From Catalimonadaceae bacterium JC749 (lineage in GTDB: Bacteria > Bacteroidota > Bacteroidia > Cytophagales > Cyclobacteriaceae): a stretch of DNA of 64,000 nucleotides. The notes beneath the pieces were generated by a model. The model worked only from the letters and a program-made list of their open reading frames with translations. It had not been told where the DNA came from and ran no database searches. The position numbers were made by a program, and so were the translations under genes. The DNA is taken from contig JAJNNC010000001.1 in NCBI GenBank assembly GCA_021730635.1, forward strand, positions 806,001 to 870,000, written 5' to 3'. Shown here piece by piece: positions 26,766 through 38,762 of the stretch. Positions within the stretch are counted from its first letter, which is position 1; the number at the start of each line of letters is the position of its first letter.

Positions 26766-26782
26766 CAAAAACTTTTAGAAGC

Positions 26783-26818
26783 GGTCTGATCCTTTTCTAT
26801 TTATGGATTGATCAGACC
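26783..26818. terminator. hairpin overlapping end of Hpt-like gene
   Basis: Perfect 9-bp arms GGTCTGATC (26783-26791) and GATCAGACC (26810-26818). The loop contains the stop codon of the minus-strand Hpt-like gene. On the minus strand it is followed, after about ten bases, by GTTTTT. It could terminate the exopolysaccharide operon, although the T-tract is displaced. Confidence 0.45.
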
Positions 26819-27184
26819 ACGGCTATAAGACACAATTTCTACTTCATGCAACTCACTTAAAATTTCATCACAGGATTTTTCTACATTGCTAATTAACTGA
26901 TGCATTTCCAACGCATTGATTGTAGTGGTTTCCAACAGTTTTTTCCCTTTTTCAACCTCTGTGGCCAACTCCATAAGATCAAACATAAGAAAAGTTGTAC
27001 GGTACTTGTGATGCATAAAAGCCAATGCTTGTTGATCCTGATCAAGCATAATCATTCTGAAGTTGTGCCTTAACTCCTGAAAATTAATGATATACAGACG
27101 CGTGAGTTCTTTCACAAAAAGTTTATCCCCTTCAGCTAATACTGACAACTTTCTTTGAAAATCATATTTTTTTTGAATGTACAT
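26801..27184 (-). CDS. Hpt-domain-like phosphotransfer protein
   Basis: The ATG at 27184 gives 127 residues; a GTG at 27220 would overlap the glycosyltransferase stop. The protein is all-helical. The helix 'DQDQQALAFMHHKYRTTFLMFDLMEL' (in part 'FMHHKYRTTFLMF') matches the Hpt pattern, where a His followed by Lys sits mid-helix and receives phosphate. The flanking 'ATEVEKGKKLLE' resembles the following Hpt helix. I infer that it relays phosphate to or from the single-domain response regulator at the head of the same operon. No histidine kinase is in the window. It is the last gene of a six-gene minus-strand operon, 28 bp after the glycosyltransferase stop. Confidence 0.6.
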   Translation of the reverse strand: MYIQKKYDFQRKLSVLAEGDKLFVKELTRLYIINFQELRHNFRMIMLDQDQQALAFMHHKYRTTFLMFDLMELATEVEKGKKLLETTTINALEMHQLISNVEKSCDEILSELHEVEIVSYSRGLINP

Positions 27185-27212
27185 ACCTTTATAGCATTTA
27201 ACCCGGAGAAAC

Positions 27213-28664
27213 TTAAGCACCCACTTTTTTCTTTTCCTTCTTTGCTTCTTCTCTGAAACCTTTCCTTTTCATTTCACCCCAATTTTTCTTACCAATTAGT
27301 AATGCTACATTTCCTTGAAGAGAGTAAAATAAAATGATAGGATGGTAGATAATAGGTTCCAGAAAAGCGGTAAGAATTAATTTAAGTGTATCTGATTTCT
27401 TAGCATATTTATAATAGGAAAATTCTTCTGCTATCAAAGCAAGCATAGACAACAGTACCGCGAAAAAATATACTACCATTAGTAAAGAAAAGAATTCCAC
27501 CCAGTGGATATTACCCAGAATCGCCAATGTTGTAAAGTATAAAATGCCCGTAGTTTCAACAAAGGGTGCCAGAAACTCCAGGAAAAACCAATAAGGATAA
27601 CTTAGCATTCCCATTAATCCGTATTTCGGATTGAAGAATAGTCCCCGGTGCTTGAACAAAGTTTCACTGGTTCCTCTGGCCCAACGATTCCTTTGTCTTC
27701 CCAGTATTTTTAGCGTAGAAGGAGCTTCAGTCCAGCATAAAGGATCAGGGATGTAACATACTTTATACTTTAGGCCCTTCTCCTGCATATACCTGCGCAT
27801 ACGAACAATGAGTTCCATGTCCTCTCCTACCGTTTTTGTGTAATACCCCCCTGCTTTGATGGCGATTTCCCGGTCGAATAAACCAAAAGCTCCTGACACA
27901 ATCAGCAATCCATTGAGTTTACTCCAGGCTAATCGGGAGAGTAAAAATACCCTGAGATATTCCAATGCTTGAAATCTTGCCAGAAAACCAGAAGGTAAGT
28001 GTACCTTCACCAAGTTGCCATCCTCAATAATACAAGAATTGGCGATTCTTACAACCCCTCCTGTGGCTATCACAGGGGTGGTAGATTGAAGATAGGGCAC
28101 TACCATTTTTAGCAGTGCATCGGGAGCAAGAATTGAATCTGCATCCAAAGTTGCTACCAAGCGGTTTCGGGAGATATTCAACCCGGCATTAAGTGCATCT
28201 GCTTTACCTCCATTCGCTTTATCTACCACAATGAGCTTACTGAATGCCTTGTTTCGAGATTTATAAATCCCTCTGATTGTTTTTGTAGGGATTCGGTATG
28301 AAATAGTTTGATCAGTAGAGATAAGATCAAAATGTTCAATAAGTTTTCTTAAAGAGTCGTCCTGACTACCATCGTTGACAACAATTACATTATAGTTATT
28401 GTACCGAAGGGATAGTAGAGAACGGGTACTGTCAAGAATGGTTTGCCCTTCATTGTACATAGGGACAATCAATGATATGGGAGGGGCTAAGGGAGAAGAG
28501 AGAACAGCTTTATAATCAGTAAAACGGCTTTTCTTAATATAATGGCGTGTATAAAAGAACGAGACGATAGCTAAAGCCAGATAAGAGATACCTATTACCA
28601 GGGCATAAAAGAAAACCACCTTTTCGGCAACAAATTCAATCACATCGATAAATACTGATTCCAT
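27213..28664 (-). CDS. processive family 2 glycosyltransferase, polysaccharide synthase
   Basis: A 483-residue membrane GT2 of the PgaC/HasA/NfrB-like class. Membrane helices flank the catalytic domain: one or two near 15-40, then about four between 345 and 470. Catalytic signatures in order: 'VPMYNEG' (~67), 'VVNDGS' with Asp98, 'DADS' (174-177), 'VGEDMEL' (Asp282) and the processivity motif 'QRNRW' (324-328). It should polymerise a sugar from a UDP- or GDP-donor and push the chain across the inner membrane. The start follows the HEAT-protein stop after one base, so translation is coupled. No PilZ domain is visible. The product cannot be named; beta-1,6-GlcNAc-like or hyaluronan-like chains are possible. 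Confidence 0.88.
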   Translation of the reverse strand: MESVFIDVIEFVAEKVVFFYALVIGISYLALAIVSFFYTRHYIKKSRFTDYKAVLSSPLAPPISLIVPMYNEGQTILDSTRSLLSLRYNNYNVIVVNDGSQDDSLRKLIEHFDLISTDQTISYRIPTKTIRGIYKSRNKAFSKLIVVDKANGGKADALNAGLNISRNRLVATLDADSILAPDALLKMVVPYLQSTTPVIATGGVVRIANSCIIEDGNLVKVHLPSGFLARFQALEYLRVFLLSRLAWSKLNGLLIVSGAFGLFDREIAIKAGGYYTKTVGEDMELIVRMRRYMQEKGLKYKVCYIPDPLCWTEAPSTLKILGRQRNRWARGTSETLFKHRGLFFNPKYGLMGMLSYPYWFFLEFLAPFVETTGILYFTTLAILGNIHWVEFFSLLMVVYFFAVLLSMLALIAEEFSYYKYAKKSDTLKLILTAFLEPIIYHPIILFYSLQGNVALLIGKKNWGEMKRKGFREEAKKEKKKVGA

Positions 28665-28665
28665 G

Positions 28666-29778
28666 CTATTTCACTATTATGTCTTTTGTAAATAATGGTT
28701 TCAATGCTTTTTGCTGAGAAAGCCTATCTATGGTATGCCTCACCATTTGGTTTACCAGGGCAGAAGGATGCTGCAAGAGAGATTCCAGTAAAATAATATG
28801 ATCGGGATCTCTCCACTGATCCACAACTTCTATCGTTTCCAGATACATTTGTTCGTGGCAATGCTGGCAGGTTGCCAGAATTTGCGGAAGCGCCTTTTTT
28901 ACTTCAAGTTTCAATAAAGACCGTATTGCTTCTTCTTTCACTGATACAGAAGGATGTTCTAAACAATCAATGACTGATGGCTCAGCCTGTTTTTGCTCAA
29001 AATCAGCAATCATTTTGAGGGCAAACTGTACTACACTCTCGTTTTCAGAAGATAACCACTGGGTAAAATCAGGAATAAATTTTCTATCCAGCTTCAATAA
29101 AAAATGATGTAAATTAATCTGCTCCCATTCATTCAATGGTTTTTGCAGGTCATAAAGGAAGAGTAAGGGTTTTTTTTCTATTCTGACTGAGGCAATTTGT
29201 GCTTCCTGTGCTACAGTTTTATTTTTGACATATCTTAATCCCATAATGGCTACCTGGGTTTTATAATACTCATAATCCATCTCTGCTAATTCTCTAATCC
29301 CCTTAGCCTGCGCATCCCAACGAGAAGTATGCAATTTCTTAAAAGAAAAATCAGATAGGCCCAAGGCCTGATACAGTTGAATGAATTGCTGCTCTGCTTC
29401 TCCCGAAAAATTCTGTTTCAGATCAATGATCAGATCAGCCAATACTTGTTTATGCAATTTGGTTTTCAGCACCTCTTTTTTAAGCTTTTCTATCATTAGC
29501 CGCTCAACAGTATCTTCTTTGTCTGTCTGGCTTTCTACCATTGCGTCATATATGAGGTATTGAAACCTGAACTTTAAGTAGTCAATCTTTTTGTTTCTGG
29601 CATTAATAATGGTGCGGCGGATGTAGAGAATAAGAATAAACAGAAAGCTCGCGAGAGCTAAAGAAATTGCCAATCCGAAAAACATATAGTTTTCAGTAAC
29701 AGACTGTTGTGGAATCCAACACACATAGTTTTGCTGCCAGGATATATATAGTATTGGATTGATCAATAATAGCTTCAT
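28666..29778 (-). CDS. membrane-anchored HEAT-repeat protein
   Basis: 370 residues. A hydrophobic N-terminus leads to one clear transmembrane helix ('MFFGLAISLALASFLFILIL', about 32-51) and a basic stop-transfer segment. The cytoplasmic remainder is helical. Several HEAT/armadillo-like units lie toward the C-terminus (about 215-350), for example 'SVVQFALKMIADFEQ' and 'VSVKEEAIRSLLKLE', each with a buried hydrophobic pattern and a conserved Asp/Glu-Ala turn. There is no enzymatic motif. The likely role is a scaffold that couples the synthase encoded next (one-base gap) to other envelope components or to the phosphorelay. Confidence 0.75.
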   Translation of the reverse strand: MKLLLINPILYISWQQNYVCWIPQQSVTENYMFFGLAISLALASFLFILILYIRRTIINARNKKIDYLKFRFQYLIYDAMVESQTDKEDTVERLMIEKLKKEVLKTKLHKQVLADLIIDLKQNFSGEAEQQFIQLYQALGLSDFSFKKLHTSRWDAQAKGIRELAEMDYEYYKTQVAIMGLRYVKNKTVAQEAQIASVRIEKKPLLFLYDLQKPLNEWEQINLHHFLLKLDRKFIPDFTQWLSSENESVVQFALKMIADFEQKQAEPSVIDCLEHPSVSVKEEAIRSLLKLEVKKALPQILATCQHCHEQMYLETIEVVDQWRDPDHIILLESLLQHPSALVNQMVRHTIDRLSQQKALKPLFTKDIIVK

Positions 29779-29781
29779 ACC

Positions 29782-30999
29782 TTAAAATCTTTTTTCTACA
29801 GAGAATGAGACGGTCATACGATCGGTCTCTCTGATCTCCTCATAAAATTCTTTTTGATAACCTGCACCGGCTTTTAAAAGCAGCTTCCTCTTGAAAGTGG
29901 AATGTTGGTAATCCAGCGCAAAACTACTGGCCTGCAATCTTCTCATTTCATTAAGAGAAACAATATGTAAGGGTGTGCTACCAGTATTCACATAGAAAGT
30001 CAGATAACGGTCTGGGTTATCAAAATATCGCCTTAGCGTAAGAGCACCTGTCATCTCATACACATTATCAATAACGGCTGTATATCCCCGAGCAGAAACC
30101 CAATATTGATTAAAATAATGGCCCAGTTGTGCAGTATAGATCATTACTTGTGCCTGATCGAAATGCAGATACCGAAATCCACCAGACAATTCTATTTGCC
30201 TGGGGAATAGTCTGAAATACTCTGCCCCACCCCGAAACAAAGGAAAGATATGCCTATCAGAAGTGCCTATATTCAGGTTACCATATGATTTTTTACTGAT
30301 CTTGGGATAAGCATCCACTTCAAATTGGTTACCCGACTGATCAAACATAAAAGCATGTGTTACCCTTCCAATGACTGGGCCCAATTGCGTATTTCTGCGA
30401 TAGCTTACTGCTGCTGTATGCCAGGGAGAAAATGTGTTGGTAAAGCGGGCGTAACTATACTCTACTGTGACAGCGTTTTTAAGTTTTTGATATTGTAGCT
30501 GCTCTATCAAGCCTTGAACTTCCCTGAGACTACTGTCCTTCGCCATAATTTGATGCAGTAAATCCAGGGCTGTATCCACCTGGTATTGATTAGCAAGTGC
30601 CTGAGCTTTGATAAATTGTAAGGGTATATGATCCGGAAATAGATGCAGGCCTGTTTGACACACCTCCAGACAGGATGGATAAGCTTCTTGCCACAGTTTT
30701 ACACGGGCCAACATTTCGTAGGCTTCTGCGCTAGGAGCATGATGCTGAATGATTTCAGATAGTAAAGGCACTGAAAGTTCGTACTCCTTTTTCCAGGCAT
30801 ATACCTGCGCTAATAGTAATTGGGCGTCATAGTGGTGAGGGCTGGATGAAAGTAGAGTGATTAATGTTTCTTTGGCCTGATCGTATTTTTTTGTATAAGC
30901 AGAGGCTTTGGCAGAATCAAGTAAACTTTCCGTATGCTGCGCCTTTATTGAAAAGGTCACACAGAAAAGGAAATAAAGAAAAGTGAAGAGTACTTTCAC
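29782..30999 (-). CDS. TPR plus YaiO-family outer-membrane beta-barrel protein
   Basis: 405 residues from a GTG start that overlaps the preceding TGA (GTGA). A signal peptide (to about 'SIKAQ') is followed by four or five TPR units (about 25-165, for example 'YDAQLLLAQVYAWKKEYELSV'), then a YaiO-type barrel of about 230 residues ending 'MTVSFSVEKRF', with a terminal Phe. The layout copies PgaA and BcsC/AlgK-AlgE: periplasmic TPRs feeding an outer-membrane pore. I infer that it exports the polymer made by the GT2 two genes downstream. YaiO itself is an outer-membrane protein next to a glycosyltransferase gene in E. coli. Confidence 0.82.
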   Translation of the reverse strand: MKVLFTFLYFLFCVTFSIKAQHTESLLDSAKASAYTKKYDQAKETLITLLSSSPHHYDAQLLLAQVYAWKKEYELSVPLLSEIIQHHAPSAEAYEMLARVKLWQEAYPSCLEVCQTGLHLFPDHIPLQFIKAQALANQYQVDTALDLLHQIMAKDSSLREVQGLIEQLQYQKLKNAVTVEYSYARFTNTFSPWHTAAVSYRRNTQLGPVIGRVTHAFMFDQSGNQFEVDAYPKISKKSYGNLNIGTSDRHIFPLFRGGAEYFRLFPRQIELSGGFRYLHFDQAQVMIYTAQLGHYFNQYWVSARGYTAVIDNVYEMTGALTLRRYFDNPDRYLTFYVNTGSTPLHIVSLNEMRRLQASSFALDYQHSTFKRKLLLKAGAGYQKEFYEEIRETDRMTVSFSVEKRF

Positions 31000-31382
31000 G
31001 ATTTAGAATAATTGATATGAGATAAATTCCGAACCTTTAAAAGCATTTCTTCCAGATTAAAGGGCTTTCCCATAAAATCATCAGCCCCCATGTCATAAGC
31101 CTCCTGCATGGCTGATTCAAGGCCTACGGCAGAAATCGCAATGATAAAAGTAGACAACTTCAGTTCATTCCGTATAAATCCAATTAACTCTAATCCAGAG
31201 GCAAATGGCATTAGTACATCTGTAATGAGTATATCTGGTTGAATTTCTCTGGCTTTTTGTTTAGCCGTTTTTCCATTTGAAGCGGTAAATATCTGATAAC
31301 TACCTTCTTTTTTTAGTTTAAAGGCAATCAGGTTCATAAATATTTCATCGTCATCTGCAATCAGTATTTTTATTCTTTTCAT
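30996..31382 (-). CDS. single-domain response regulator (CheY-like)
   Basis: 128 residues with every receiver residue in place: acidic triad Asp10-12 ('IADDDE'), phospho-Asp55 in 'LITDVLMP', Ser84 in 'AISAVG' and Lys106 in 'MGKPFN'. There is no output domain, so it must signal by protein-protein contact or pass phosphate to an Hpt protein. An Hpt-like protein is encoded at the end of the same operon. Its TGA overlaps the GTG of the TPR-YaiO gene, which forces translational coupling. The upstream gene is 17 bp away. Confidence 0.92.
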   Translation of the reverse strand: MKRIKILIADDDEIFMNLIAFKLKKEGSYQIFTASNGKTAKQKAREIQPDILITDVLMPFASGLELIGFIRNELKLSTFIIAISAVGLESAMQEAYDMGADDFMGKPFNLEEMLLKVRNLSHINYSKS

Positions 31383-31399
31383 ATTGTCTACAGGTTTTG

Positions 31400-31834
31400 T
31401 TAATAACGGATAATAGGTTGGGAATACACCTTTCCGTTGACGACCAAACAGGCCATAAAAACTCCTCTCATTGAATAATTTTGAAGAATGGAGAATTCGT
31501 AGAATCCACTTTTCAACTCTGCTTCCAATGGAATATCTATGGTATTCCCGAACATATCAGTAATGAAAAGTTGTGCGTTAAAAACAGGGGCTTTTAGATG
31601 AAGCAGCAAAGTAGAATTTCTATCGTATGCACTGGGATAAACTCTAAACTGCACTTCTGAAACGATGTTTTTCCTGTTAGGTTCTAGTGTTACTTCCTCC
31701 GTAGATACTATTTCCGCAAAGATGTGTAATCGTTCTGGATCTGTAATTTCGCTAAAGTAGGGTTGTGCCAAAGCACTTTGAACCATTGACTGTACAAAAA
31801 TCACTATAGCAGCGTATATTAGCTTTGATTTCAT
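31400..31834 (-). CDS. secreted protein consisting mainly of a T9SS sorting-domain-like fold
   Basis: 144 residues. A signal peptide ends 'SALAQ'. After about 45 residues of linker, the remainder follows the Por/T9SS C-terminal domain pattern: 'FRVYPSAYDRNSTLLLHL' (VYPNP-like), 'AQLFITDMFGNTID', 'LKSGFYEFSI' and 'MACLVVNGKVYSQPIIRY'. There is no recognisable cargo. It is the first gene of the exopolysaccharide operon. It may be a small surface-anchored accessory factor, or a CTD-fold domain recruited as a structural part of the exporter. The VYPNP core is degenerate (VYPSA), so secretion through T9SS is not certain. Confidence 0.6.
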   Translation of the reverse strand: MKSKLIYAAIVIFVQSMVQSALAQPYFSEITDPERLHIFAEIVSTEEVTLEPNRKNIVSEVQFRVYPSAYDRNSTLLLHLKAPVFNAQLFITDMFGNTIDIPLEAELKSGFYEFSILQNYSMRGVFMACLVVNGKVYSQPIIRY

Positions 31835-32024: not shown

Positions 32025-32267
32025 ATGCGTATTGTCAGTGAAATCTTTCATCCTCAATGTAAAATCACTGTATTTGCCTGGAATGGTAAATATCTGATAA
32101 AGTTGGAAAGAGGCTTGCTGGAGCAGACGTATAAGATACCTGAAATGGACCTTAGTGGTGAGGAGGATATCAAGAAACTAGTCCAAGGAAAGTTTTTACA
32201 GGGCGTATTATCCCGTTTCGATGAAATGGAAAAAGATTTACTACAAGCACTACATACACTAGAATAA
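32025..32267 (+). CDS. small conserved hypothetical protein
   Basis: 80 residues, no signal peptide. Strand-rich start ('CKITVFAWNGKYLIKLERG') and helical end ('GVLSRFDEMEKDLLQALHTLE'). The look of a small cytoplasmic alpha/beta protein; I do not recognise a family. It faces away from the exopolysaccharide operon across a dyad-bearing gap, and its stop is one base from the convergent folA stop. Confidence 0.65.
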   Translation: MRIVSEIFHPQCKITVFAWNGKYLIKLERGLLEQTYKIPEMDLSGEEDIKKLVQGKFLQGVLSRFDEMEKDLLQALHTLE

Positions 32268-34124: not shown

Positions 34125-37100
34125 ATGAACGCCTTTTCACTATGTACCTCGCTTTTCTCGACAGTCTCCAACTATTGTCAGAAAGGCCAACGCTTAGGGC
34201 TGCTGCAATCTATAAGGTTAAGCATACCCACAAGCGCTTTCGTTGCCTCGCTAAGATTTCTTATGAGGCGACAGCTTTTATCAGCTACTCTGTTTCTGGC
34301 CTTTCCGCTTTCACTATTTTTACTTCTACCCGTCGATCAGGTTGCTGCCCAAAAAACATTCATCGTCAACTCTCTTGGCGATGCAGAGGATCCTAACGCA
34401 CTCAAACCTGGAGACGACAAAATATGTAATACTGGAAATACCATGCCTTCTGGGGAGCCGGAGTGTACACTGCGTGCAGCGATTCAGAATCACAACGCCC
34501 AACAATCCGTAAATGATGTCTTAGTGCGCAACGAGATCATATTCAACATTGATTTGCAGCAACTGGGCGTATCAACTCCGGTTATTGAAGTTGGCAGCGC
34601 AACCAACGAAGGGCTTCCGTTCGTTTTGGGAATCGTGACAATTGATGGCACTACACAACTCGATCCGTCAGGAAATCCCCTTATGGTCGTACTGGAGGGA
34701 AGTCAAGCCGGAACCTTTGCCTCTGGCTTGGAGCTTCGAACTGGCGGAGGAGCATTCCAAGAACCTGGTGAGGGTACTATCATACGAGGGTTTGCGATTC
34801 ACAGTTTCGACTTATACGGGATTGTGATCGGGGGTACTGGTTCGCCTGGATTGGGAGGACACGTTATCGAAGGCTGCCACATCGGCACTGACCCGGAAAA
34901 TAGTCCGGGTCTAGGCAACGGTGGCCACGGCATCTATATTGAAGACACTCCAAACAACACCATTGGTGGGGAAACTGTTGGAGCAAGCAATGTCATTTCA
35001 GGTAATACAGGCGATGGTATTCGCATTGAAGATACCTTTCAGCAATCGGACGATAACCTGGCGACAAACAACAGAATACTTGGCAACTTTATTGGTACCG
35101 ATGCCGGAGGTGCAAGCGTATTACTCGGCAATGGCGGAGATGGCGTGCACATTGTCAATGCTGCCAGTAACTCTGTGGGATCTCCGATATTTGAGCTGGA
35201 AGAAAGACCCAGTAATCTCATCTCGGGCAACGCAGGAGCTGGCGTGCATGTCGAGGGTACTAAGGCCATAAACAATGCCATAATAGCCAATTTCATTGGA
35301 ACCAACGGCGAAGGAGGCCTGAGCAGTGAACTTGGCAATGGTAGCCATGGAGTGTTGATAAGCAATGCCCCGGCTAACACCATTGGGGGACTTCTCAACA
35401 CAGAAGGAAATGTCATTGGAGGCAATAAGGGAAACGGAGTACATGTCGTAGGTACTAGCGCCAGTGATAATGTTATTGAAGGCAATGAAATCGGTATCAA
35501 CCGGCCCGATGATATTCTCGTGCCCAATGAGGGCGACGGCGTGCACATTGCCAATGCACCAGGCAACACTATTGGGGCTCCACGCGATGAGTTTATGGTC
35601 ATCACTCGCGGCAACCTCATCTCTGGCAACCAGGGAGATGGTGTACACATTGAGGGTAGCAGCGCAACAAACAATATTGTTTTGGGCAATCACATCGGCA
35701 CCAATCTGGTAGGTGGCGTTGCAGGCAGCAGTCCTCGCCCGAATGAGGGAAACGGTGTATTCATTTCAGATGCACCCGACAACATCATTGGAGGAATGGC
35801 AAGCGAAGCCCGTAATCTCATTTCCGGTAATCAGGCAAATGGCATCAGCATTGAAAATGCCTTGGCTACAAGTAATAAGATTGGATCCAACTTTATCGGT
35901 ACCGATGCTGAAGGAAGTCCGGACAACGAACTTGGCAATGGTGGCGATGGGGTGTTGATCACTAATGCACCTGACAACACTATCGGTGGGACTATCACAG
36001 TCGGCCAAGCGGGGACTCCGCCCGGAAACCTTATTTCTGGCAACCAGGGAAACGGCATACAGATCAGCGGTTTGGCAGCCTCAGGTAACAAAGTGGAGGG
36101 AAACATCGTAGGCCTTGACGCCAACAGCAACGTAGCCCTTCCTAATGCTCTCATCGGGGTGTTTCTCAATGACGCACCCAATAACTCAATAGGAGGCCCT
36201 TCTACACCTATAACAGGAGAAAAGGGTAATGTCATTTCGAGCAACTTAGGCCATGGCATCGAACTCAACGGAGCCAATGCCAATAACAATATCATTCAAT
36301 CTAACTTGATTGGAACTAACGGAGCGGAAACCGAAGAGCGAGGCAACCAGGGCGACGGGATACACTTACTCGATGCACCCAGTAATACGGTTGGTGGTGG
36401 GGGGCTCCTATTGGGTGAAGTAAACATCATTTCTGGTAATATTGGCAATGGGGTAAGCATCCAAGGTATTGGTGCAATCAACAACAATATTCGAGGCAAC
36501 TTAATCGGCCTCAATACTGCAGGTAAAGCCTTATCAAATGGACAAGATGGTATCCTTATCAATGGAGCATCTAACAATGTTATCGGAGGAAACCAGGTAG
36601 ACCAAAACACCATTGCTGGCAATGACGGAAATGGTATTCAGATTACCGGATTGAATGCCCGGGATAATTTTGTTTTCAACAACCTGATCGGTCTTCACAG
36701 CCGAATCTTTCCTCTCGGCGAGCCCCTACCCAACGGACTGCATGGTGTGCTCATTAGCAATGCTCCGGCTAACACCATCGGCGGGCTTGTCTTCACGCCT
36801 GCTGGCCTCATACAAGCTGGCAATATTATCTCAGGAAACAATGGTGATGGCATTCATATTACCGGTGTTAACGCGACGGGCAACATCATACAACTTAACC
36901 GTATTGGTACCGATTTGGCTGGTCTTGCAGCAATCCCAAATGAGGATGGCGTACAGATCAGTGATGCCCCTACTAACCTCATCGGAGGAGTTCCTGCTAA
37001 TGATGGCAATCTCATTTCCGGTAATCTTTTCAGTGGTGTTCGAATTACCGGTACCGGAGCGACAGGTAATCGTATTGAGGGAAACATCATTGGCCTCAAT

Positions 37101-38762
37101 ACTAAATTAGACGACCAATTATCTAATCTCACCAATGGTGTACACATCACGGGCGCATCTAATAACATCATCGGGGCCGCCGGCAGTAGAAACATCATTG
37201 CGGGAAATGGTGGAAGCGGTGTTGTGGTAGAAGGAAACACAGCAACAGGCAATGCTATTCGGTTTAACCTCATCACACGGAACGGTGGAAGTGGCGTTGT
37301 GGTAGAGGGAAACACTACAACGGGCAATGCTATCCGGTTCAACTCCATCTTTGACAATAGCCAGTTAGGCATCGACCTTGGCGACAACGACGTCACTCCT
37401 AATGATCCGCTTGATCCGGACCCCGGCCCGAATAACCTTCAAAATTTTCCGGTGCTGACGTCGGCCTTAATATTTTCTGAAGCACCTCCCCGATTTAGTA
37501 TTACAGGATCCTTCAATGGTACACCCAATACCAACTTTATCATCGATTTTTACGCCAATACGCTTCCTGACCCGTCCGGATTTGGAGAGGGGCAGATATC
37601 GCTTGGCACAACGACAGTAACTACCGATGGCAGCGGCAATGTTATCTTTACGTTTGGAGTACCTGGAGTTCCTCCCCTCCCTTTCGTTTCTGCTACGGCC
37701 ACCGACCCGAACAATAACACAAGTGAGTTCTCTAATACCATAGGCTTTGATAGCCTACCGCAACTGGCCGACCTGGAACTGACTAAGAAGGTGGATCAAG
37801 CTTCGCCCACAGTGGGAGAGCAGATTACCTTTACTGTTACACTGCTGAATAAAGGTCCCAACATAGCCACCGGCATCGCGGTCACTGATGCTGAACCTAC
37901 TGGCCTAACTTTCGATATGGTTACTCCCAGTACTGGAAGCTACAATAAGAGCACAGGTATCTGGACAGTGGGCACTCTTGCTATTGGAGACAGTGCCAAG
38001 TTGACCATTCTGGCGACGGTTAATCAGGCTGGAACACTCACCAATACAGCAGAAGTAACCTCCGCCGATCAGCTTGATCCGGACTCATCTCCAGGCAACA
38101 ACGCCGCAGATGAAGATGACCAGGATAGCACCGAGGTCGAAGCAACAGAAGTATTGACTGTTGAAGAACAGATTGCCAGACTCATCAATCAGGTAGACAG
38201 CCTCATGAAAGCGGGAACACTTACCCCAGGTGAGGCGCGAAGCTTGAAAGCCACGCTCATTACAGCACTGAAACTCGTCAAAAAAGAGAAAAACAAAGCT
38301 GCTGCCAATGTTCTCAAATCTTTCGTACTCAGAGTACAAGTGCTTATATTTAAAAACCGTTTGCCGGATGAAGAGGGTCAAAAGCTCATTGCAGCCGCCC
38401 AGGCTATTATCAAACAAATACGATCGAATGTCCCGATAGCGACCGTTGAAGGAGAAGTATGGGAGTCGTCATCGCTTCCCATGGAACCTTCATTTTCAGA
38501 GGACTATAGTCTATACCAGAACTATCCCAATCCTTTTACTGTATCCACGATCATTCACTATGAGCTACCAGAACCCGGGCAGGTCCGGCTCGTAGTGTAT
38601 GACGCTCTCGGTTGGGAAATTGCCCGACTGGTGGATAGCTACCACCATGCAGGACGCTATCAGATAACCCTGGATGGACAAACACTCAGCGCCGGACATT
38701 ACCTCTATGTGCTACAGGCTGGTGGGCGCATCATCGCACGAAAGATGATTCTGAAGAAGTAA
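34125..38762 (+). CDS. giant T9SS-secreted beta-helix surface protein (CSLREA, DUF11, FIMAH)
   Basis: 1545 residues from the ATG behind a perfect Shine-Dalgarno. A classical signal peptide starts only at Met47 ('MRRQLLSATLFLAF', codon 34263), so the first 46 residues are an odd extension or the true start is 34263. A CSLREA-type region ('ECTLRAAIQNHN', ~115) precedes about 12 beta-helix units (~150-1100), each built on 'NTIGG' and 'NLISGN' turns of ~55-75 residues. Then come one DUF11 domain (~1213-1330), a FIMAH domain (~1344-1425) and a type A T9SS sorting tail ('NYPNPF', 'ARKMILKK', ~1460-1545). Probably a surface adhesin or polysaccharide-binding protein; a lyase is possible. It has its own terminator. 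Confidence 0.88.
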   Translation: MNAFSLCTSLFSTVSNYCQKGQRLGLLQSIRLSIPTSAFVASLRFLMRRQLLSATLFLAFPLSLFLLLPVDQVAAQKTFIVNSLGDAEDPNALKPGDDKICNTGNTMPSGEPECTLRAAIQNHNAQQSVNDVLVRNEIIFNIDLQQLGVSTPVIEVGSATNEGLPFVLGIVTIDGTTQLDPSGNPLMVVLEGSQAGTFASGLELRTGGGAFQEPGEGTIIRGFAIHSFDLYGIVIGGTGSPGLGGHVIEGCHIGTDPENSPGLGNGGHGIYIEDTPNNTIGGETVGASNVISGNTGDGIRIEDTFQQSDDNLATNNRILGNFIGTDAGGASVLLGNGGDGVHIVNAASNSVGSPIFELEERPSNLISGNAGAGVHVEGTKAINNAIIANFIGTNGEGGLSSELGNGSHGVLISNAPANTIGGLLNTEGNVIGGNKGNGVHVVGTSASDNVIEGNEIGINRPDDILVPNEGDGVHIANAPGNTIGAPRDEFMVITRGNLISGNQGDGVHIEGSSATNNIVLGNHIGTNLVGGVAGSSPRPNEGNGVFISDAPDNIIGGMASEARNLISGNQANGISIENALATSNKIGSNFIGTDAEGSPDNELGNGGDGVLITNAPDNTIGGTITVGQAGTPPGNLISGNQGNGIQISGLAASGNKVEGNIVGLDANSNVALPNALIGVFLNDAPNNSIGGPSTPITGEKGNVISSNLGHGIELNGANANNNIIQSNLIGTNGAETEERGNQGDGIHLLDAPSNTVGGGGLLLGEVNIISGNIGNGVSIQGIGAINNNIRGNLIGLNTAGKALSNGQDGILINGASNNVIGGNQVDQNTIAGNDGNGIQITGLNARDNFVFNNLIGLHSRIFPLGEPLPNGLHGVLISNAPANTIGGLVFTPAGLIQAGNIISGNNGDGIHITGVNATGNIIQLNRIGTDLAGLAAIPNEDGVQISDAPTNLIGGVPANDGNLISGNLFSGVRITGTGATGNRIEGNIIGLNTKLDDQLSNLTNGVHITGASNNIIGAAGSRNIIAGNGGSGVVVEGNTATGNAIRFNLITRNGGSGVVVEGNTTTGNAIRFNSIFDNSQLGIDLGDNDVTPNDPLDPDPGPNNLQNFPVLTSALIFSEAPPRFSITGSFNGTPNTNFIIDFYANTLPDPSGFGEGQISLGTTTVTTDGSGNVIFTFGVPGVPPLPFVSATATDPNNNTSEFSNTIGFDSLPQLADLELTKKVDQASPTVGEQITFTVTLLNKGPNIATGIAVTDAEPTGLTFDMVTPSTGSYNKSTGIWTVGTLAIGDSAKLTILATVNQAGTLTNTAEVTSADQLDPDSSPGNNAADEDDQDSTEVEATEVLTVEEQIARLINQVDSLMKAGTLTPGEARSLKATLITALKLVKKEKNKAAANVLKSFVLRVQVLIFKNRLPDEEGQKLIAAAQAIIKQIRSNVPIATVEGEVWESSSLPMEPSFSEDYSLYQNYPNPFTVSTIIHYELPEPGQVRLVVYDALGWEIARLVDSYHHAGRYQITLDGQTLSAGHYLYVLQAGGRIIARKMILKK
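37206..37355 (+). repeat. tandem 75-bp direct repeat in beta-helix gene
   Basis: Two copies of a 25-codon unit (37206-37280 and 37281-37355) encode 'NGGSGVVVEGNT-TGNAIRFN' with few silent or conservative differences. It marks a recent duplication of a single beta-helix coil at the end of the repeat array. Confidence 0.8.

Follow-up and report, generated by a model that had tools for sequence, protein, structure and literature searches.

A HEAT-repeat protein and a family 2 glycosyltransferase as the conserved core of a putative receiver-controlled polysaccharide synthase system in Bacteroidota

A stretch of 64,000 nucleotides from the genome of Catalimonadaceae bacterium JC749 (contig JAJNNC010000001.1, positions 806,001 to 870,000 of the forward strand; hereafter the window) carries an operon of six minus-strand open reading frames (ORFs) at positions 26801-31834. 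The operon probably encodes a system for synthase-dependent exopolysaccharide secretion in which a phosphorelay switches the synthase post-translationally. Its six-gene set, found in five genomes, is a local variant of a wider, unnamed system, the conserved unit of which consists of a HEAT protein, a family 2 glycosyltransferase (GT2) and a regulator. The features of the operon, from the first gene to the last, are as follows:

31400..31834, minus strand: probably secreted protein of 144 residues with a hydrophobic N-terminus; function not assigned, lineage-specific
30996..31382, minus strand: single-domain response regulator (receiver) of 128 residues with Asp55 as phospho-acceptor and Lys106 (PF00072, 79.5 bits)
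29782..30999, minus strand: TPR protein with a YaiO outer-membrane beta-barrel, 405 residues, putative exporter (PF19413, TIGR04390)
28666..29778, minus strand: membrane-anchored HEAT alpha-solenoid, 370 residues, putative non-catalytic synthase subunit or docking platform (PF13646)
27213..28664, minus strand: processive-type GT2, 483 residues (PF00535/PF13641 and motifs)
26801..27184, minus strand: free-standing Hpt protein, 127 residues from the ATG at 27184; the ORF extends to a GTG at 27220
26781..26820, minus strand: hairpin with T-rich tail, likely terminator, overlapping the Hpt stop codon and facing a convergent gene

The first-pass annotation of the window had described six minus-strand genes with coupled or near-coupled translation, and the ORF check confirmed their positions as well as every junction. 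The GTG start codon of the YaiO gene overlaps the receiver stop codon (GTGA), the HEAT and GT2 genes are separated by a single base, the YaiO and HEAT genes by 3 bp and the first gene and the receiver gene by 17 bp. Between the GT2 and Hpt genes the gap amounts to 28 bp if the latter starts at ATG 27184; the alternative start at GTG 27220 appears less likely, since residues 1-14 of that reading have predicted local distance difference test (pLDDT) values below 50. Furthermore, the labels given to four of the proteins were borne out by Pfam matches above curated cut-offs, namely Response_reg (79.5 bits, cut-off 30.2) for the receiver, HEAT_2 (48.9 bits, cut-off 27.7) for the HEAT protein, Glycos_transf_2 (81.2 bits, cut-off 23.3) for the GT2 and PF19413 (174 bits, cut-off 23.9) in addition to TPRs for the YaiO protein, which also matched TIGR04390 (152.9 bits, cut-off 32). 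The operon probably ends at the hairpin over the Hpt stop codon (-19.6 kcal/mol, z -4.11). This hairpin was spotted by eye and was not in the list of the terminator scan, the total of which was near that of shuffled sequences (7 versus a mean of 4.2, standard deviation 2.2). A promoter scan was no better than shuffles (20 versus a mean of 17.3, standard deviation 3.3).

Relatives of the GT2 were counted at E<=1e-60, the own genome being included in each sample. For the order the count is 9 of 148 genomes, for the close relatives 7 of 39 and for the phylum Bacteroidota 70 of 296; the spread of the enzyme across the phylum is patchy, and most relatives lack even the GT2. Within the 296-genome sample 78 GT2 matches were obtained, and a HEAT profile searched against the same genomes yielded 74 matches in 66 of them. 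A GT2 gene follows downstream on the same strand for 72 of these 74 HEAT matches (68 within 221 bases and four at 1.05-1.7 kb), and 72 of the 78 GT2 matches feature such an upstream HEAT match. The two HEAT exceptions reside in G339, where the GT2 is located on another contig, and in G150, where no GT2 was found (genomes and loci are referred to by G and L numbers, respectively). Regarding the six GT2 exceptions, a HEAT gene was found on reading in L119 (G225), L120 (G185) and L101 (G278); L116 (G324) has no HEAT gene, L110 (G339) lies at a contig end and the remaining match, in G244, is outside the loci read.

In total, 74 loci were read, comprising 59 of the 78 GT2 matches of the phylum sample, three and six loci from the order and the close relatives, respectively, five others and the HEAT-only locus of G150. 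The first batch consisted of 54 loci, window included, after removal of L015 (located on the contig of L062), L022 (whose contig is truncated) and L021 (an unrelated sequence with a partial match of 28%). The second batch of 20 was partly picked for GGDEF neighbours, and counts over all 74 loci thus refer to a non-random sample. An early domain map was replaced by one based on cleaned profiles, because the first profiles had absorbed multidomain kinases and TPR-sulfatase proteins. The HEAT gene is located upstream of the GT2 gene on the same strand in all 54 loci of the first batch. Within the 74, L115 features a HEAT gene without a GT2 match, L116 a GT2 gene without HEAT, and L110 GT2 fragments at the contig end.

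The linkage between HEAT and GT2 genes is far beyond chance. Subunits of a single enzyme would be expected to show such a pattern, although neighbouring genes can also stay together through common descent. Spearman correlations of the distances, for which the kinship of the species was not controlled, amounted to 0.68 for GT2 and HEAT, 0.52 for GT2 and receiver and 0.51 for HEAT and receiver. The full six-gene set was found only in the window, L062, L016, L017 and L063, with L016 and L017 being close kin. Conservation of the gene set, which the first-pass annotation had treated as one operon, therefore holds for the HEAT-GT2 pair and the receiver, which are kept in other genomes, but for the full set in five genomes only. 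A second receiver-HEAT pair directly after the cassette was observed in L018 (9517-10754; Fluviicola metagenome-assembled genome), where no second GT2 was mapped.

The GT2 carries the motifs DxD, ED and QRNRW, which are conserved in 53-54 of the 54 first-batch loci, and hydrophobic helices flank its GT domain on both sides. Profiles, motifs and predicted helices support the earlier description of a processive GT2 with QRNRW motif, a YaiO/TPR protein, a membrane HEAT protein and an intact receiver. Assignments of the enzyme to named synthases were rejected: TIGR03937 (PgaC/IcaA), with PgaC as the best NCBIfam match, reached 139.9 bits at a cut-off of 422.3, TIGR03030 (cellulose synthase BcsA) 33 bits at a cut-off of 699.1, and the score for the NodC type was far below its cut-off. 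A Pga system was rejected as well, with the PgaA model TIGR03939 scoring 13.1 against 366.65 bits and no deacetylase domain among the six genes. A phmmer search of the GT2 against the PDB returned five weak matches to parts of GT2 enzymes, the best being chondroitin synthase (1.1e-7). The window genome comprises 8.0 Mb (completeness 100); its next-best GT2 match shows 28% identity over part of the query only, and its single PF19413 copy is the YaiO gene of the operon. YaiO barrels are frequent among the cassettes.

Two further protein families were observed beside these genes. A family of approximately 393 residues occurs in 12 of the 54 loci (L019 11399-12565, L020 5990-7183, L023 6467-7636, L025 10495-11715 and eight more). 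Three of its members have no Pfam match at E<=0.1, and its genes are located directly after YaiO in L020 and L025 and after the GT2 in L023; it is a candidate for a new part of the export path. Moreover, a PF00884 relative of LtaS/OpgB type is encoded in 19 of the 54 stretches, in part on the opposite strand. In five loci (L070, L071, L076, L079, L084) this protein is fused to the GT2, and in L064, L073, L078, L086 and L087 it is a separate protein of approximately 800 residues, with terminal TPRs detected by Pfam in L064. In an NCBIfam scan of two members, the scores for the LtaS and phosphoglycerol transferase models stayed far under the cut-offs. These proteins give a hint of a phospho-group decoration of the polymer in some lineages. 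The window operon does not contain such a gene.

For the HEAT protein, an AlphaFold model (46 rows) with a pLDDT of 90.5 features a long helix at residues 27-83 including a hydrophobic stretch, followed by an all-helical solenoid. The hydrophobic helix at residues 33-51 has a net charge of -1 before and +4 after it. Such a helix was predicted in 53 of the 54 HEAT proteins. In 46 of 54 the stretch following the first helix carries a higher net charge than the stretch preceding it; several of the eight others have an additional helix close to the N-terminus, which is then counted as the first. Since the charge is higher after the first helix, the solenoid is probably cytoplasmic and would therefore share its compartment with the receiver and the GT2 active site. 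A Foldseek search of the model listed only other solenoids (designed Armadillo, alphaRep, importin-alpha) and gave no functional hint. Some HEAT relatives (L020, L026-L028, L030, L065, L066, L077) carry approximately 130-290 extra residues before the HEAT-side helix, which are hence probably periplasmic. Weak matches below cut-off to LysM (L077) and SPOR (L030) suggest that these extensions may contact the cell wall.

The window receiver matches PF00072 over residues 6-117 of 128 and carries D55 and K106, which qualifies it as a single-domain response regulator. A receiver domain is encoded upstream, in the same orientation, in 48 loci of the first batch of 54 and in 57 of all 74 loci read (the one in L123 being a partial ORF of 73 residues). 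In L084, L122 and L126 it lies 3.5-6 kb downstream of the GT2 gene and in L070 on the other strand. Most cassette receivers are bare and comprise approximately 120 residues. The column of Asp55 is occupied by Asp in 44 and that of Lys106 by Lys in 46 of the 48 cassette receivers. In 12 of the 54 loci a histidine kinase gene with the orientation of the receiver gene precedes it by no more than 0.9 kb; in L019 a kinase is encoded farther off. An Hpt, either free or within a larger protein, is present in 19 of 54 (nine of which are the seeds of the Hpt model described below, and L063 being recognized through its own family). Altogether, kinase or Hpt relay parts were found near the cassette in 21 of 54 loci, and the free-standing Hpt is one of several inputs to the cassette.

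Identification of the small last protein as an Hpt, as suggested in the first-pass annotation, is supported by profile homology and by its phospho-accepting His, whereas the structural evidence leans the same way more weakly. An independent Hpt model was built from nine Hpt domains of other cassettes, excluding the window family; six of these seeds were scanned with Pfam, which placed L018, L069, L071 and L077 above the cut-off of the Hpt family and L023 and L074 marginally under it. The model recognized the window protein (E-value 4.5e-4) and its homologues in L062 (8e-10), L016 (2.3e-7) and L017 (3e-4), and did not find that of L063. The predicted phospho-His, the second His of HHKYRTT, is aligned in the window, L062, L016 and L017, i.e., in four of the five genomes. 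However, the curated model PF01627 gave no match at E<=10 for the window protein and three homologues and none at E<=0.01 for the L062 homologue, and the window protein has no Pfam or NCBIfam match above any cut-off. The AlphaFold model of the protein is a helical bundle with a pLDDT of 85.6, for which the four best Foldseek matches in the PDB belong to Hpt proteins (three chains of 3myf and one of Pseudomonas HptB, 7c1i). Their probabilities are 0.95-1.00 and their TM-scores 0.42-0.53 by query; statistically they are weak (E 0.12-0.22), with no match at E<=0.001.

In order to evaluate the part played by cyclic diguanylate (c-di-GMP), GGDEF domains were searched. The window genome has no match at E<=0.001, while the same search finds matches in 8 of 14 control genomes; c-di-GMP control is therefore unlikely here. 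At E<=1e-6, the search of the 296-genome sample gave no GGDEF match for any of the 32 carriers within the window's class and a match for 23 of the 38 carriers of other classes; the only own-class genomes of that sample with any GGDEF match, G030 and G184, are not carriers. A PilZ domain was not present in the Pfam results for HEAT or GT2. The first-pass annotation had proposed a switch operating without c-di-GMP, which fits the window genome. In some other lineages GGDEF proteins stand beside, are fused to or replace the receiver. In L107-L110, which form one family group, there is no receiver, and a GGDEF protein with intact motif is encoded 17-92 bases after the GT2 gene. L100, of the same family, has a shorter GGDEF ORF 1.6 kb after the GT2 gene, L117 one 1.9 kb before the HEAT gene, and L111 none. 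By Pfam, GAF and GGDEF domains are present in L100, L107, L109 and L110, with CHASE3 and PAS in the three longer proteins. In L097 and L098 a GGDEF-EAL protein is encoded directly before the receiver, which carries Glu in L097. Furthermore, five loci encode a single receiver-GGDEF-receiver protein whose ORF immediately precedes or overlaps that of the HEAT protein:

L095, 5133-6695: receiver-GGDEF-receiver protein
L112, 5907-7532: receiver-GGDEF-receiver protein
L113, 5667-7454: receiver-GGDEF-receiver protein
L114, 5895-7535: receiver-GGDEF-receiver protein
L115, 6049-7671: receiver-GGDEF-receiver protein

In these fusions Glu takes the place of Asp in the first receiver, the second receiver has retained its Asp and the GGDEF motif between them is degenerate; each of the corresponding genomes has one GGDEF match only. 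The protein has the appearance of a diguanylate cyclase remodelled for protein contact. On the GT2 tree (72 rows, L110 and L115 left out), the GGDEF cassettes without a receiver group together in a single clade on a long branch (100/97) and the fusion cassettes in another (100/100). At least two rewirings in a few lineages are therefore deduced rather than a phylum-wide rule.

According to the proposed mechanism, the GT2 would polymerise a polysaccharide and extrude it through the inner membrane, as its family and motifs suggest, and the YaiO/TPR protein, judging by its domains, would convey the polymer across the periplasm and the outer membrane. The HEAT protein, a near-constant partner of the GT2 that has a single membrane helix and a solenoid probably lying in the cytoplasm, would dock the single-domain receiver. 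Phosphate would pass from a kinase encoded elsewhere in the genome via the free-standing Hpt to Asp55 of the receiver. In its phosphorylated form the receiver may then bind the HEAT protein or the GT2 and switch synthesis on or off; we infer that it would act through protein contact rather than through transcription. In other lineages the same core may be fed by a kinase with its own Hpt, by a receiver-degenerate GGDEF fusion or by an intact diguanylate cyclase. More tentatively, the cassettes could represent a synthase class across Bacteroidota that is defined by a HEAT-solenoid socket for regulators, occupied by an Hpt-fed phospho-receiver in the window's class and by degenerate or intact GGDEF proteins in sister classes.

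Several observations weigh against a synthase switched by a phosphorelay. No receiver was seen in 13 of the 74 loci, of which L094, L110 and L119 are located at the edge of a contig, the phospho-accepting Asp is replaced by Glu in L029, L075 and L097 and by Asn in L071, and 33 of the 54 loci show neither a kinase within 0.9 kb of the receiver nor an Hpt. The Hpt of L063 has Glu at the phospho-His position, which counts against a strictly conserved relay. Moreover, absence of GGDEF from own-class carriers is largely a class trait and not specific to carriers. In the duplicated cassettes L030, L071 and L075 the nearest relatives of the receiver differ from those of GT2 and HEAT. This last finding would also fit an alternative in which receiver and Hpt serve a phosphorelay of the whole cell as its sink or side branch, share the operon merely for convenience and act on a distant transcription factor, with the synthase being constitutive or transcriptionally controlled. 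In its favour, the window genome has 110 receiver matches and five other Hpt matches, the locus has no known kinase, and single-domain receivers can work in phosphorelays regulating gene expression, according to PMC12802240. We nevertheless regard this alternative as unlikely, albeit worth serious consideration: receiver-bearing cassettes span 17 family labels on the GT2 tree, receiver, HEAT and GT2 share their nearest relatives in the duplicated cassettes L024, L085, L079 and L096, and the GGDEF proteins that neighbour the receiver, are joined to it or substitute for it in certain lineages fit control of the synthase better than a shared sink.

The product itself could also be different, i.e., a periplasmic or surface glycan or glycolipid instead of a secreted matrix polysaccharide, with YaiO not serving as its exporter. 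A further point against the secretion system proposed here, and in favour of such a glycan, is that YaiO is absent from the stretch read in 9 of the 54 loci and encoded on the opposite strand in 9 more. The LtaS/OpgB-type relatives in 19 of 54 stretches, with five GT2 fusions, are likewise reminiscent of membrane-derived oligosaccharide, and the PgaC score is far below its cut-off. This possibility is considered similarly unlikely, or slightly more so, in view of the processive-type motifs, the hydrophobic helices flanking the GT domain, the TPR-barrel architecture and the fact that the sole YaiO copy of the window genome lies inside the operon. Very improbable, finally, is a core that responds to c-di-GMP in the manner of PgaC-PgaD or BcsA, with the receiver as an auxiliary part. 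It would account for the GGDEF genes after the GT2 (L107-L110, and farther off in L100) or before the receiver (L097, L098) and for the matches in 23 of the 38 other-class carriers. For the window genome it is already largely refuted by the complete lack of GGDEF there, to which the same lack in all 32 own-class carriers, the missing PilZ domain and the degenerate GGDEF motif of L095 and L112-L115 can be added.

Synthase-dependent exopolysaccharides are frequently under post-translational c-di-GMP control. PgaABCD/IcaA systems combine a TPR-barrel exporter with a processive GT2, which is shared by the window operon; the latter differs by its HEAT and receiver genes, the lack of a deacetylase and a genome without GGDEF. 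BcsA-BcsB, Alg8-Alg44 and Pel pair a GT2 with a non-catalytic partner able to receive a regulatory signal, whereas the partner in the window is a HEAT solenoid and the input gene in the window's class is a receiver. E. coli YaiO is, to our knowledge, an outer-membrane barrel of unassigned role; the window protein belongs to the same barrel family, has TPRs in front and sits among GT2, HEAT and receiver genes. In the SypF-SypE system of Vibrio fischeri, SypE acts via effector domains on SypA, whereas the window receiver is bare and no SypA-like partner was seen. Kinases of that system reportedly dictate the activity of the response regulators controlling the symbiosis polysaccharide.

BcsA-BcsB, Alg8-Alg44 and Pel synthases are described as being under c-di-GMP control in PMC12802240, and a title cited therein presents PelD as a degenerate diguanylate cyclase serving as receptor, a role that is perhaps mirrored by the degenerate GGDEF of the L095 group. 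The closest functional likeness is EpsW of Myxococcus xanthus, a single-domain receiver which in its phosphorylated form stimulates the phosphoglycosyl transferase EpsZ post-translationally, as supported by proximity labelling and activity data (PMC12802240). Common to both would be the control of a polysaccharide enzyme by a single-domain receiver through contact, as is proposed here for the window. EpsZ is an initiating, large monotopic phosphoglycosyl transferase of a Wzx/Wzy pathway, whereas the window enzyme belongs to a different phylum, is a synthase-type GT2 accompanied by a HEAT protein and has an Hpt encoded in its operon. By this analogy, the window system would be the synthase-pathway counterpart of EpsW-EpsZ in a GGDEF-poor lineage.

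Synthase-dependent secretion as such is of a known kind; what looks new is the HEAT subunit together with the input from a phospho-receiver. The first-pass annotation knew of no experimental description, and the open literature, most subscription papers being outside the search, likewise yielded none for the HEAT-GT2 pair, its receiver or the HEAT-GT2-YaiO-receiver system. Among the listed papers mentioning YaiO, none concerned a Bacteroidota polysaccharide locus as judged by title and beginning of the abstract, and in the main text of the operon survey PMC7112194 a word search did not retrieve HEAT, Bacteroid, YaiO, Flavobacteri or response regulator. For a class poor in GGDEF, as observed in this sample, the cassette offers a concrete, testable answer to how matrix production may be gated post-translationally. 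If true, a phospho-receiver at the HEAT socket would do the job that c-di-GMP does in other synthases. Moreover, the natural series of regulators on one core (kinase-Hpt-receiver, free Hpt, receiver-degenerate GGDEF-receiver and intact GGDEF) could reveal the contact site by comparison.

The product of the first gene has a hydrophobic stretch at residues 5-23 and no Pfam or NCBIfam match over cut-off, in Pfam not even at E<=10. Homologues were found in only four other genomes among the loci read, two of them matching DUF3244 weakly and below cut-off. Its initial labelling as similar to a type IX secretion system (T9SS) tail could not be upheld: the likeness was noticed by eye only, all profiles were silent, and the protein is not among the 82 Por_Secre_tail (PF18962) matches of the genome at E<=0.001. 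Beyond the operon, a divergent ORF of 80 residues without Pfam match is located at window positions 32025-32267, and related small ORFs were observed beside the operon in L016, L017 and L062. Approximately 2.3 kb beyond the first gene of the operon, window positions 34125-38762 encode a protein of 1545 residues with a terminal T9SS Por_Secre_tail domain (approximately 38523-38750).

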